The notes below the pieces were generated by a model. The model was not told the DNA's origin, ran no database searches, and saw only the letters and a program-made list of their open reading frames with translations. DNA of 37,476 bases from Phycisphaerae bacterium (GTDB taxonomy: Bacteria > Planctomycetota > Phycisphaerae > Sedimentisphaerales > UBA12454), in contig JAPLMW010000063.1 of NCBI GenBank assembly GCA_026386845.1, forward strand, positions 68,315-105,790. Reading direction: 5' to 3'. Positions 186 to 36,653 of this stretch are shown here, piece after piece. The first letter of the stretch is position 1. Every line of letters begins with the position of its first letter. The translations under genes were made by a program, and so were the position numbers.

Positions 186-254
186 CCCCGTTAGAAAGAA
201 TATATCATAACTGAATACCTGACAGCCATTAAAGGCAACCTCTTTCTAACGGGG
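186..254. mobile_element. Inverted-repeat insertion, CCCGTTAG family, copy a
   Basis: The ends are CCCCGTTAGAAAGA and its reverse complement TCTTTCTAACGGGG. The element is flanked by TAAA at 182-185 and TAAA at 255-258, which reads as a 4-bp target duplication. The interior shares AATACCTGACAG with copy e at 36.6 kb. It has no coding capacity, so it would be a MITE-like or REP-like non-autonomous element. Confidence 0.75.
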
Positions 255-31755: not shown

Positions 31756-31809
31756 ATGAACCCCGCACCTTCTAAATATTCATTCAGATTTTTTAAGGTG
31801 TGGGTTTGA
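31756..31809 (+). CDS. 17-codon frame opened by the insertion (original GNAT start)
   Basis: The ATG at 31756, probably the original start of the GNAT gene (GGTGGA lies before it), now reads MNPAPSKYSFRFFKVWV into the inserted element and stops. It may be translated as a leader peptide. The second copy of the element makes a similar frame (MYPAPSKYS...). Confidence 0.4.
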   Translation: MNPAPSKYSFRFFKVWV

Positions 31810-31871
31810 AATAGCGTAAGAATATAATTTATACAGATTCAAATTAGAATTGAACAGAAAGAAGGTGCGGG
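31762..31871. mobile_element. Start-codon insertion element, CCCGCACC family, copy 1
   Basis: A 110-bp element with ends CCCGCACCTTCT and AGAAGGTGCGGG. ATGAAC at 31756-31761 and GTGAAC at 31872-31877 flank it (five of six identical), reading as a 6-bp target duplication made of start codon plus second codon. The right end carries AGAAGG, placed as a ribosome-binding site for the new GTG start. The inside is AT-rich and alignable with copy 2. It encodes no transposase. Confidence 0.8.
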
Positions 31872-32612
31872 GTGAACTGCACAATAAAAAGATATTTAAA
31901 AATTGTTCCGGGAACTATCGCTGACTATAAGCCTTTGTCTCGTTTTCATTATCGAGACAGCAGAACAGGGGCGGTAGCGGCGGTTTATAAAATCATCGAT
32001 ACTCATCCGATGAGAGAACAAATTGAACCCGTCGTCGGCATAATCATTTATTCAATGCCGGCCTGCTCCGTGCAGCTTCGCAATATCGCGACAAAAGGCC
32101 TGTTTACGAAATTAGGCTCCGCGAATGCGAATATGCAGCTTATAAATCAAAACATCCGCACTATCGCAAGAGTGGTAATCGAACCGCGATACAGGGCTCT
32201 GGGACTTTCTTATGAACTCGTCCAAAAAACGATGCCGTTGCTGAATATGCCTTACATCGAGGCTCTGGCCGTGATGGGCAAGGTCAATCCATTCTTCGAA
32301 AAGGCTGGAATGATGAAATTCGAAGCTCCTCAGTCTTTGCGCAGCGTTAAACTCCGCCAGGCCCTGAGCACAATCGGTATTGAAGACACCGACCTCGTCG
32401 ATATCGAAAAGACGCACAATAAACTGCAAAGTCTCAATCGAAAGGCAAAAAGTTTTATCGAAAAGCATATAACGGATTTCCTCGCCGCCTACGGCAAAAA
32501 GGGCAGATTAATGCGGGACGGTTTGGCAAGAACAGAATTTTTTATCAGCAGGCTGTCTGAGAGGCCGGTTTACTATCTCTGGCGAAATACCGCCTGCGAT
32601 TTGAAGATATAA
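31872..32612 (+). CDS. GNAT-like acetyltransferase, second half of a COG2401-type protein
   Basis: A 246-residue protein. The N-terminal part (PGTIADYKPLSRFHYRDS) and the acetyl-CoA motif ARVVIEPRYRALGLSYELVQ (about 99-118), followed by YIEALAVMGKVNPFFEKAGM, match the acetyltransferase domain that COG2401 proteins carry after an ABC ATPase. The pyrophosphate-loop glycines are partly replaced (RALGLS), so activity is uncertain. The substrate is unknown; phage Mu Mom, a DNA-modifying enzyme, is also GNAT-like, but direct kinship is not claimed. The start is GTG at 31872, supplied by the element. The gene follows the ATPase gene by 197 bp. Confidence 0.78.
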   Translation: MNCTIKRYLKIVPGTIADYKPLSRFHYRDSRTGAVAAVYKIIDTHPMREQIEPVVGIIIYSMPACSVQLRNIATKGLFTKLGSANANMQLINQNIRTIARVVIEPRYRALGLSYELVQKTMPLLNMPYIEALAVMGKVNPFFEKAGMMKFEAPQSLRSVKLRQALSTIGIEDTDLVDIEKTHNKLQSLNRKAKSFIEKHITDFLAAYGKKGRLMRDGLARTEFFISRLSERPVYYLWRNTACDLKI

Positions 32613-34762: not shown

Positions 34763-34982
34763 GTAATTTGCCTAAAAAAATTCACTCTTCTGCAATATTT
34801 CAGCCTCTTTAAGCGTCCATAATATAGAAAAACGTGAATTTTACGTTACTTTGACTTAAAACCAACCACTGATAGACGGTAAAATATAAATTTGATACTC
34901 CGCATCCCGTTAGAGACAAGCCACTCATAGGCTGTCAAGCCTAAGGCTTTGTCTCTAACGGGACGCATACAGGTTAAAGAAT
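34763..34982. other. Spacer with insertion copy c
   Basis: No gene was seen apart from the CCCGTTAG-family element at 34905-34963. The sequence before it has A/T-rich promoter-like words. Confidence 0.4.
34905..34963. mobile_element. Inverted-repeat insertion, CCCGTTAG family, copy c
   Basis: The ends are CCCGTTAGAGACAAG and CTTTGTCTCTAACGGG; CGCA at 34901-34904 and 34964-34967 flank it. It lies in the spacer just upstream of the pseudopilin gene. Confidence 0.75.
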
Positions 34983-35738
34983 ATGAGAGATAGAAAAACA
35001 GGATTTATCCCGTTAGAGACAAGTCGGCAGGGGCGACCGTCTGGTATTTCAAATATCTCGTCTCTAACGGGATTTACCCCAACACCAATTTGCATTGCGA
35101 TTGGGCAGGTAAAAACAAAAGATACGCAGTTTTGCCGGCAAAATTCAAATTCTCTTGCCATACGCAAATTGGTGAGGGGATTTACGCTGGTTGAGCTTTT
35201 GGTAGTGATGGCGATAATCGCTATGCTGACCGGCATACTTATGCCGGCCTTGGCCGCCACTCGCAGGATTGCCTACAAAACCCTTTGCAAAGAAAATCTG
35301 CACGGCTGCGCCATCGGGTTTCGTATGTATCTCGACGACAACAAGAATGTTATGCCGACAATTACAAATATGCCCAATGCACATCTGGCTGATAATCCTA
35401 TCCCAATTTTCACCGCCATCGGCAAATATCTCGGCAACCCTGAAGTTCTCAAATGTCCCGCGGACAAAGGCACCGTCATAGGCACTTCATTTTTTGACAG
35501 GTCGCAGGCCGAAAAAGACGCAAACTGCTACTTCAGGGAACAAGGCTCAAGCTATGAATACAATACAAGGTTGGCAAACCAAGTTATTGAGAAAAGCCGG
35601 TCCGCCCAGCGTTTCAGCGTAAATGAGATATACCTGCTAAGAGATTACAGTGCATTTCACGGCACGCCGGGCAGGACAGGTTCGGTGATGTATCTTTACG
35701 CCGACTCATTAGTAGCTGACAGAGAAAGGGACAAATAA
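34983..35738 (+). CDS. Type II secretion-style pseudopilin
   Basis: A 251-residue protein with the prepilin motif RGFTLVELLVVMAIIAMLTG (cleavage after Gly at about 66, then Phe, Glu at +5), so it is processed by prepilin peptidase. The mature part (YLDDNKNVMPTI; EVLKCPADKG; GSSYEYNTRL) matches planctomycete pseudopilins with a calcium/cysteine-type head, here shortened. The leader of 66 residues is unusually long because an inverted-repeat element (copy d) inserted in frame and adds 23 codons. The stop TAA overlapped the original start of the next gene. Confidence 0.8.
   Translation: MRDRKTGFIPLETSRQGRPSGISNISSLTGFTPTPICIAIGQVKTKDTQFCRQNSNSLAIRKLVRGFTLVELLVVMAIIAMLTGILMPALAATRRIAYKTLCKENLHGCAIGFRMYLDDNKNVMPTITNMPNAHLADNPIPIFTAIGKYLGNPEVLKCPADKGTVIGTSFFDRSQAEKDANCYFREQGSSYEYNTRLANQVIEKSRSAQRFSVNEIYLLRDYSAFHGTPGRTGSVMYLYADSLVADRERDK
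35008..35072. mobile_element. Inverted-repeat insertion, CCCGTTAG family, copy d (in frame)
   Basis: The ends are CCCGTTAGAGACAAG and CTCGTCTCTAACGGG; TTTA at 35004-35007 and 35073-35076 flank it. The net gain of 69 bp keeps the pseudopilin frame open and adds IPLETSRQGRPSGISNISSL followed by TGF to the leader. Confidence 0.78.
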
Positions 35739-35815
35739 TGTATCCCGCACCTTCTAAATATTCATCACGCCGATGTGATATATTACGTATATCTTTTAAA
35801 AAATCGCAAGAATGA
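35738..35815 (+). CDS. 25-codon frame opened by the insertion (original start of the next gene)
   Basis: The ATG overlapping the pseudopilin stop (TAATG) reads MYPAPSKYSSRRCDILRISF into the element and stops at 35815. Before the insertion it would have been the coupled start of the downstream membrane protein gene. Confidence 0.4.
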   Translation: MYPAPSKYSSRRCDILRISFKKSQE

Positions 35816-35865
35816 TAGAATCACAATAAGTTCAAAGAAAAATTAAATAGAAAGGAAGGTGCGGG
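35744..35865. mobile_element. Start-codon insertion element, CCCGCACC family, copy 2
   Basis: A 122-bp element with ends CCCGCACCTTCT and AAGGAAGGTGCGGG. ATGTAT at 35738-35743 and ATGTAT at 35866-35871 flank it exactly. The right end provides AAGGAAGG at 6-7 bp from the new ATG. Interior words (AAATATTCAT, ATCGCAAGAATG, TTCAAAGAAAAATT) align with copy 1. Confidence 0.82.
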
Positions 35866-36540
35866 ATGTATTCCGGCACACTTAAACAACCGCCGTCAAA
35901 CAGAAAAAAAATAGTGATTATCGCTGTTATTGCAGTTGTCTTTTGTCTCTCAGCCTCCGGCGGACTGTATTATATGTTCAAAGGCAGTTCTGACCGCACA
36001 GATGAGTTCGGCAGACGAAGAAGAGATTGGCGGGACGCCAATCTTCCTAACCCAGACAAGCAAAAGCCGCAGGAAATTATGGCTTATATGGACAGCGCCG
36101 AGTTCAAGAAATTAGCGCCTCGCAAGCAGTTTGAGTATATGCGACAAGGCGGCCGGCAGGTTATGGAATATCAGATGGAAACATATTTCTCGCTTGGCGA
36201 CGAGAAGCAGAAAACCGCCTATCTTGACCAGATGATTGACAGGATGCAGGCCGAGCGAGCCAACTTCGAGCAGATGCGTGGGCAGATGCCAAGACGCCAG
36301 CGGGACGCAAATGAACCAAATGACCCGAACCGTCCTTCTCGCCGGCAAGCTCAGGCCGGCGGCAGAAGAACTCAGACTGCTTCCGGTATGCGGGCAAGGT
36401 CTGAAAGAGGCACAGCACTTCAGAGAGCACAGCGCGATGCGTTTATGACGGCTATGCGAAAAAGAATGCAGCAGCGCGGGATAACAACGCCCGGCCCAGG
36501 CGGCAGAGGCGGTCCCGGCGGGCCTCCGCCCGGAAGATGA
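35866..36540 (+). CDS. Single-pass membrane protein with disordered Arg/Gln/Pro-rich tail
   Basis: A 224-residue protein: a cytoplasmic N-terminus, one transmembrane helix (IVIIAVIAVVFCLSASGGLY, about 16-35), then a helical and charged region (AYMDSAEFKKLAPRKQFEYM; KQKTAYLDQMIDRMQAERAN), and a low-complexity end (RQRDANEPNDPNRPSRRQ, GPGGRGGPGGPPPGR). The Asn-Asp-Pro linkers are typical of planctomycete envelope proteins. The start codon and ribosome-binding site come from the element. It originally overlapped the pseudopilin stop, so the two genes were coupled. The function is unknown. Confidence 0.7.
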   Translation: MYSGTLKQPPSNRKKIVIIAVIAVVFCLSASGGLYYMFKGSSDRTDEFGRRRRDWRDANLPNPDKQKPQEIMAYMDSAEFKKLAPRKQFEYMRQGGRQVMEYQMETYFSLGDEKQKTAYLDQMIDRMQAERANFEQMRGQMPRRQRDANEPNDPNRPSRRQAQAGGRRTQTASGMRARSERGTALQRAQRDAFMTAMRKRMQQRGITTPGPGGRGGPGGPPPGR

Positions 36541-36588: not shown

Positions 36589-36653
36589 TCCCGTTAGAGA
36601 CAAGACATCTTCAATACCTGACAGTCGCTGCAAGCGGCCTATCTCTAACGGGA
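36589..36653. mobile_element. Inverted-repeat insertion, CCCGTTAG family, copy e (at a start codon)
   Basis: The ends are CCCGTTAGAGACAAG and TATCTCTAACGGG; TGAA at 36585-36588 and 36654-36657 flank it. The last A of the element plus the duplicated TG recreates an ATG at 36653. The interior shares AATACCTGACAG with copy a. Confidence 0.78.

Follow-up and report, generated by a model that had tools for sequence, protein, structure and literature searches.

Results

A short inverted-repeat element between two formerly overlapping genes

The window, by which we mean the whole stretch of 37,476 nt that was analysed, belongs to a 2.4-Mb draft genome in 96 contigs. Two copies of a short element were found in it, each immediately before a gene. 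The features at the two sites are the following:

34983..35738, + strand: upstream pseudopilin-like gene (N_methyl, PF07963), the stop codon of which overlaps the native start of the next gene (TAATG)
35738..35815, + strand: leader frame from the captured native start, MYPAPSKYSSRRCDILRISFKKSQE followed by a stop, a remnant of the nuclease frame described below
35739..35742, + strand: left copy of the target-site duplication, TGTA, inside the captured native start ATGTA
35743..35866, + strand: short non-autonomous element, 124 bp including its terminal T and A, the terminal A being base 1 of the rebuilt ATG
35743..35755, + strand: left terminal inverted repeat, TCCCGCACCTTCT, encoding (M)YPAPS from the captured ATG
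35854..35866, + strand: right terminal inverted repeat, GGAAGGTGCGGGA, holding a Shine-Dalgarno-like GGAAGG for the host gene
35867..35870, + strand: right copy of the target-site duplication, TGTA
35866..36540, + strand: displaced host gene, encoding a 224-aa membrane protein, now starting at the rebuilt ATG
31756..31809, + strand: leader frame of the second copy, MNPAPSKYSFRFFKVWV followed by a stop
31761..31872, + strand: second copy, C...G-ended, with the target-site duplication TGAA at 31757-31760 and 31873-31876 and the host start changed from ATG to GTG
31872..32612, + strand: host gene of the second copy, 246 aa, with a GTG start whose G is supplied by the last base of the element

The stretch from 35736 to 35871 reads TAATGTAT-CCCGCACCTTCT...GGAAGGTGCGGG-ATGTAT, and the inverted ends of the element are 13 bp long (TCCCGCACCTTCT/GGAAGGTGCGGGA). 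The pattern CCCGCACCTTCTN{60,90}GAAGGTGCGGG gave 17 forward matches in the genome and its reversed-pattern control gave 0, which excludes chance, in line with the suggestion in a preliminary description of this DNA that two such insertions are unlikely to arise by it. With one mismatch allowed per end and regional extraction, we delimited 40 copies in the genome, most of them 100-113 bp in size, and 82 further copies were taken from named genomes of Planctomycetota, Omnitrophota and Patescibacteria (one exact-match scan). Terminal inverted repeats of 12-13 bp were present in 122 copies, as is required of MITE ends, and the multiple dispersed copies together with empty sites (see below) likewise qualify the family as a MITE, or non-autonomous DNA transposon. 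Nearly identical copies were found at unrelated genes (L068 and L084, 93%; L075 and L088, 88%). Some of the copies are orthologous insertions (e.g. L073/L148/L187, L177/L194, L181/L196 and L157/L164), so the number of independent events is somewhat lower than 122.

The target duplication is 4 bp long

ATGTAT at 35738-35743 and 35866-35871 brackets CCCGCACCTTCT...GGAAGGTGCGGG (35744-35865) and had been described as an exact 6-bp duplication. The hexamer is present on both sides, but the true duplication is 4 bp (TGTA). Across copies the structure is A/TGAA/(T CCCG...CGGG A)/TGAA/x, and the upstream flank is nearly always ATGAAT, even where codon 2 of the host is AAA, AAG or AAC. The duplication must be 4 bp rather than 6, since the base at the outer edge does not vary upstream and changes between T-A and C-G in step with the opposite end. 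The two extra bases of the rejected 6-bp duplication are the terminal T and A of the element, and it is that A which rebuilds the ATG. For C...G-ended copies the rebuilt start is GTG, as at 31872 in the window, where the interior of the second copy (31762-31871) is flanked by ATGAAC and GTGAAC; the change from ATG to GTG was seen at 33 copies in other genomes. The outermost pair is complementary (T-A or C-G) in 116 of the 122 copies, so the ends stay complementary. Among the changes inside the 12-bp end, 15 were matched on both ends and 20 were unmatched, 11 of these 20 at the innermost position.

The 4-bp duplication was intact in 93 of the 122 copies, consistent with a target duplication of fixed length. 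The duplicated sequence was TGAA in 76 of these, TGAG in 4, TTGA in 3, and TGTA, TGGA, TCAA and TTTA in 2 each. A second, smaller class in the window's genome is mainly C...G-ended, with TTGA or TCAA targets away from starts. We also noted several unusual arrangements. At trpA (L081, 4237-4356) the element lies between AGGAA and TGAAAACA with no matching duplication, and relatives read AGGAAGTGAAAACA; this is a duplication-free or rearranged insertion, and G009 has CCCC in a similar position. Two tandem elements with one common 6-bp ATTCAT between them were seen at L064 (3873-4087; G000:C11:12872-13086), one apparently inserted into ATGAA beside the other. Minimal elements of 48 bp, hardly more than two ends, occur at L074 (3049-3096) and L100 (3109-3156), with TTGA targets and C...G outer bases.

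Most copies lie exactly at start codons

In 96 of the 122 copies the rebuilt ATG or GTG opens a long frame, placing the element exactly at the start codon. This is the opposite of the outcome that would have refuted the preliminary description, namely that most copies lie at random intergenic sites. The host genes include trpB and trpA (both confirmed by Pfam) and, as judged from their N-termini, ispH-, murF-, ackA-, rpiB- and acpS-like genes. Five of the start-codon copies are hosted by native GTG or TTG starts, and several copies are at ATGTA, ATGGA, ATGAG or ATGAT starts, which keep the ATG and not the AA.

When all ATGAA sites in the same loci were considered, 16% were start-like, compared with 27 of 32 elements (p = 4e-17). 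For non-interior ATGAA sites, a background which assumes that insertions inside genes are lost, the start-like share was 59%, compared with 27 of the 32 elements of the window's own genome (p = 0.002). The latter p value is a conservative bound because the start-like criterion is generous and the 59% probably overcounts true starts. The non-interior background weakens the start-codon bias as a proof of targeting on its own, and part of this bias is due to ATGAA specificity and purifying selection. Copies of the T...A class that are not at starts were also found at ATGAA (C11, C13 and C83), so the sequence specificity is real. We conclude that ATGAA sequence specificity and selection shape the distribution, and that true starts are moderately preferred in addition.

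Empty sites and remnants are found in relatives

A comparison with relatives lacking the element, as had been proposed at the outset, recovered the empty window site in four of them (loci L229, L230, L233 and L235; genomes G009, G011, G001 and G012). In these, the orthologues of 35866-36540 read ...AAATAATGGC... or ...AACTAATGG..., the pseudopilin stop overlapping the start without an element, and the earlier inference that two once-coupled genes are now separated is upheld by this element-free TAATG overlap. At trpB, the element is present in G000 and G011; G002 and others have an empty site. Only ...GAATAAAAAGAAGGTGCGGGATG is left directly before trpB in G009 and G008, the left half having been lost, which, on sequence grounds, suggests that the right end was retained as the ribosome-binding site of the gene. 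The retained right end in these two relatives and the census of copies both support the claim that the displaced gene receives a new AAGGAAGG.

Full-length forms encode a GIY-YIG nuclease

Full-length forms were sought by PF01541 searches of relatives. These forms are ~295-330 bp, have the same ends and target and encode one GIY-YIG nuclease, the only ORF of the elements matching PF01541 with E values of 4e-17, 2e-16 and 3e-12, as expected for a mobile element with a GIY-YIG enzyme. No transposase (DDE, DEDD, HUH, serine or tyrosine) was found between the ends of the 295-330 bp forms examined, only GIY-YIG. An autonomous relative with a recognised transposase, a further mark of a MITE, is therefore lacking among the full-length relatives, which encode only the GIY-YIG nuclease.

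At L111 (G011), ATGAA and TGAA enclose an element with the ends TCCCGCACCTTCC...GGAAGGTGCGGGA and a 95-aa GIY-YIG ORF (MNPAPSQYSIYHVYLLKS...). Its start is the captured ATG, no other in-frame start preceding the domain. The same plan is seen at the Omnitrophota loci L205 (103 aa), L207 (frame-shifted) and L206. The cleanest example, L265, is TGAA[C...G]TGAA with a 100-aa ORF, MNPAPSLNSIMYHAYLLKSK...KKEGAG, read from the captured ATG (MNPAPS); the stop codon of this nuclease is the TGA of the host's GTGA, and the N-terminus of the host protein resembles NrdR. Since the nuclease frame begins at the captured ATG of the host, the first residues of the nuclease (MNPAPS) are specified by the inverted repeat. 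In three full-length forms, one with the family's ends, the frame has no stop of its own and is closed by the TGA of the rebuilt RTGA start; L209 (ends CCCGCCCTTCCT) and L022 of the window's own genome (ends TCCCGTTAGACCTC) combine the captured start and the RTGA stop with different ends. This nuclease frame, with its start taken from the captured ATG and its stop, in some forms, from the TGA of the rebuilt start, could not have been seen in two copies alone. An internal in-frame ATG (MYxxY) in L205, L207 and L265 is a possible start of the nuclease's own.

L111 is ~70% identical to its Omnitrophota relatives, across phyla and in different genes, which suggests horizontal movement. An exact-end search of 384 Omnitrophota genomes gave one match only, L265, indicating that intact full-length forms are rare or that the ends have diverged. 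The window's own genome yielded no full-length copy with exact family ends; none of its 8 GIY-YIG genes is bounded by CCCGCACC, and the nearest candidate, L022, has the different ends CCCGTTAGACC. Spread by phages and plasmids was also considered and rejected: viral contigs gave 0 short-form matches and no nuclease relative, and for plasmids only distant Rhizobiales GIY-YIG genes (<40% identity) were detected. At L206 (1410-1820), extra copies of the end (CCCCGCAC) lie just outside the full-length Omnitrophota element, which looks nested or repeatedly targeted.

Leaders of the short copies retain parts of the nuclease frame

The leaders of the short copies keep MNPAPSKYS in front and, when open, EGAG and the stop codon at the back. 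The GIY-YIG core is kept in some of them (HIGYTNDMNHRLEQ, YIGYINDTKRRLEQ), sometimes with YIGYTND..RRLEQ, and 7 of 48 tested leaders matched the nuclease at p <= 0.01 when compared with shuffles. An early stop was present in the leader of 56 of 86 short copies. The 30 leaders that are open to the end of the element (44 to 191 bp) are all in the frame of the rebuilt RTGA (30/30); 28 stop exactly on its TGA and the others at +1 and +10, with no fusion of an open leader into the host frame (0/30). If the three frames were used equally, this single-frame result would be vanishingly unlikely, with relatedness allowed for. Either the frame is ancestral and has been maintained, or the other frames have been purged because the captured start is truly used.

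At the other end of the element, the right end gives the host gene a Shine-Dalgarno sequence (AGAAGG) and the rebuilt ATG or GTG. RNA folding (z = -3.84) predicts that the ends pair, with the Shine-Dalgarno sequence and start inside the stem.

A sister palindromic family and other flanked GIY-YIG genes

Four copies of a second palindromic family are present in the window:

186..254, + strand: C...G-ended copy with the duplication TAAA, intergenic
34905..34963, + strand: copy with the duplication CGCA, intergenic
35008..35072, + strand: copy with the duplication TTTA, close to the 5´ end of the pseudopilin frame and in frame with it
36589..36653, + strand: copy (ends TCCCGTTAGAGAC) at a start codon, TGAA[T...A]TGAA, in frame (MNPVRDKTSSIPDSRCKRPISNGMK)

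Most members of this sister family, CCCGTTAGAGAC...GTCTCTAACGGG, are 63 bp long. They often occupy ORFs in frame, either internally or at the start, and have varied 4-bp duplications and outer bases T...A or C...G. The GIY-YIG gene at L022 has TCCCGTTAGACCTC ends and thus probably belongs to the same element class. A further palindrome, CCCGTTAGAGA...TCTCTAACGGG, was noted at 428-537 of the window with TAAA on either side.

Tight flanking inverted repeats (score >= 14) were detected for 13 of 59 GIY-YIG ORFs compared with 0 of 334 control ORFs (Fisher p = 6e-12). Flanked GIY-YIG elements with other ends have the 4-bp targets TTGA (L208), TATG (L213) and TCAA (L215). These data point to a class of GIY-YIG elements and not one oddity. 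At L105, L106, L107, L126 and L218, GIY-YIG genes lie between inverted palindromes such as TGTCATTCCCGCG..., TGTCATTGCGAGG... and CGTCATTCTGAG..., which we take to be widespread bacterial repeats; GIY-YIG enzymes may mobilise repeats of these types too.

Discussion

We consider it likely that the insert in the window is a non-autonomous, MITE-like copy of a GIY-YIG-encoded element that inserts at ATGAA starts and gives the gene its translation start back. What we observed directly is that the copies are dispersed and lie at start codons, that there are 4-bp duplications and empty sites, that a nuclease frame occurs between identical ends at the identical target, and that the open leaders are biased to one frame. 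The full-length form consists of a single gene, for a GIY-YIG nuclease, with a short inverted repeat at either end. In the mechanism that we propose, the GIY-YIG protein, as we infer, would nick A/TGAA with a 4-nt stagger and then insert the element, such that insertion at this site or its variants (TGTA, TGGA, TGAG and TGAT) would duplicate 4 bp. ATGAA is a very common start-codon context, so the element would land on start codons. The host ATG and native upstream signals may then initiate the element's frame, the repeat providing codons 2-6 (NPAPS), with use of the captured start in vivo being inferred. The last base of the element (A or G) and the duplicated TGAA rebuild the host ATG or GTG, and the right repeat (AGAAGGTGCGGG) supplies the Shine-Dalgarno sequence of the displaced gene. 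The inverted repeats may pair in the mRNA and hide this sequence, and translation of the leader probably exposes it, though that the hairpin matters is an inference. Ribosomes translating the leader would presumably melt the stem, or else re-initiate after termination at RTGA, which would leave the host gene roughly under native control, and a frame ending on the rebuilt RTGA may couple host translation to that of the element. That the nuclease cuts or transposes is likewise inferred, and the lack of biochemical evidence for ATGAA cutting by this GIY-YIG protein counts against our explanation, as do the lack of a full-length copy with the family ends in the window's own genome, the possible internal nuclease start in L205, L207 and L265, the early stops in most short-copy leaders, and the fact that much of the start-codon bias follows from ATGAA specificity and the loss of interior insertions. 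GIY-YIG homing nucleases such as I-TevI leave 2-nt 3´ overhangs, which alone are insufficient for a 4-bp duplication.

The MITE-like size, the inverted repeats and the 4-bp duplications, which are typical of DDE elements, would also fit a conventional MITE moved by a DDE-type or HUH/Y1 (RAYT, IS200/IS605) transposase, with GIY-YIG as a passenger or hitchhiking selfish gene, and there are Y1_Tnp genes in the genome (5 matches). We think this improbable, given that every full-length copy holds the GIY-YIG frame alone, filling the whole element, that the family ends were found at 0 of the 5 Y1_Tnp loci, and that GIY-YIG genes with different ends and targets repeat the plan (13/59 versus 0/334 controls). 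Tyr-1 REP elements, to our knowledge, are normally without target duplications, which is a further point against the HUH/Y1 version. A REP/RAYT system was rejected because no Tyr-1 transposase flanked by the repeats was found, the 5 Y1_Tnp loci being without the family ends. If the repeats were static regulatory RNA elements (translational switches) and homologous recombination, not transposition, had spread them, this could account for a stable stem with the Shine-Dalgarno sequence inside and for ends that are conserved and compensated as the interior diverges; we give it very little weight, since precise 4-bp duplications, empty sites, near-identical copies at unrelated genes and nuclease-coding versions need a mobile element. 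The genome is a 96-contig draft, but chance or an assembly artefact is practically ruled out: many assemblies made independently, from three phyla, share these ends and this plan, and the reversed pattern gave 0 matches.

It is possible, if doubtful, that the start-codon location is a selection footprint only, with the element inserting at any ATGAA or TGAA, interior insertions being lost, the ends resembling a Shine-Dalgarno sequence by chance, and no adaptation of the element. The T...A copies at ATGAA sites that are not starts (C11, C13 and C83) and the 59% start-like share of non-interior ATGAA sites agree with this, whereas the 27 of 32 own-genome copies exceed that share (p = 0.002), and the five copies at native GTG or TTG starts and those at ATGTA, ATGGA, ATGAG and ATGAT are harder to reconcile with it. 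The RTGA frame coupling, the NPAPS-encoding repeat and the Shine-Dalgarno spacing also suit a start-codon element.

Beyond the GIY-YIG-encoded start-codon element itself, we lean, with limited conviction, towards a new class of prokaryotic transposable elements in which a ~100-aa GIY-YIG nuclease is the sole enzyme and subfamilies differ in ends and 4-bp target. One lineage would be specialised for start codons, taking its start and sometimes its stop from the target (ATG...RTGA), and the same class would mobilise unrelated palindromic families including CCCGTTAGA (L022). If true, this would be a mobile element that spares its host by rebuilding the translation start of the gene, and that owns no start codon and, in its tightest form, no stop codon. 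The GIY-YIG nuclease would become one of the few enzymes that mobilise prokaryotic elements unaided, and many orphan palindromic repeats would have a testable origin. Annotation is affected as well: a spurious MNPAPS leader, read from a false start upstream, is attached to dozens of genes per genome, including some with core functions, and a GTG start in Omnitrophota can be an insertion footprint. The right end left alone at trpB in two relatives suggests that the elements are a source of new ribosome-binding sites. We found nothing on prokaryotic GIY-YIG elements with inverted repeats or start-codon capture in the open full-text literature (preprints and most subscription journals were outside the scope), and the absence of such an element from the literature is not proven.

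Several known systems share features with these elements. Rickettsia palindromic elements and similar repeats are palindromes in or at coding frames that are tolerated by the host. The sister family CCCGTTAGAGAC, often in frame, is like them, whereas the start-codon family precedes the gene, rebuilds its start and is not translated into the host protein. A survey of the GIY-YIG superfamily covers homing genes, restriction enzymes and Penelope elements, and the phrase "inverted repeat" is absent from it (PMC1564403). Penelope-like retroelements resemble the elements described here as transposable elements using a GIY-YIG nuclease (PMC1564403), but carry a reverse transcriptase, of which there is none here. 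GIY-YIG homing and free-standing mobile endonuclease genes (PMC1564403) have in common with them a selfish GIY-YIG domain and small single-ORF units. Homing genes, however, copy into cognate alleles without inverted repeats or target duplications, whereas the elements described here occupy many ectopic sites, have inverted repeats and 4-bp duplications, and include MITE derivatives; with dozens of different genes hit per genome and 4-bp duplications, the elements do not meet the definition of homing (one cognate site, no duplication). REP/REPIN sequences with RAYT (Tyr-1) (PMC2817692, PMC3116915) are likewise short palindromes apparently moved by one small, domesticated-looking enzyme, but REPs are extragenic and RAYTs are HUH enzymes, unlike the present elements with their 4-bp duplications, start-codon sites and lack of a Y1_Tnp locus with the ends. 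Bacterial MITEs such as MITEAba12 (PMC6382973) and the pneumococcal repeats (PMC3049150) are similar in being ~100 bp, non-coding and multicopy, with inverted ends, target duplications and the need for an autonomous relative. Here, in contrast, the autonomous relative encodes a GIY-YIG nuclease and not a known transposase, insertion is at start codons, and the ends encode codons 2-6 of a frame together with a Shine-Dalgarno sequence.
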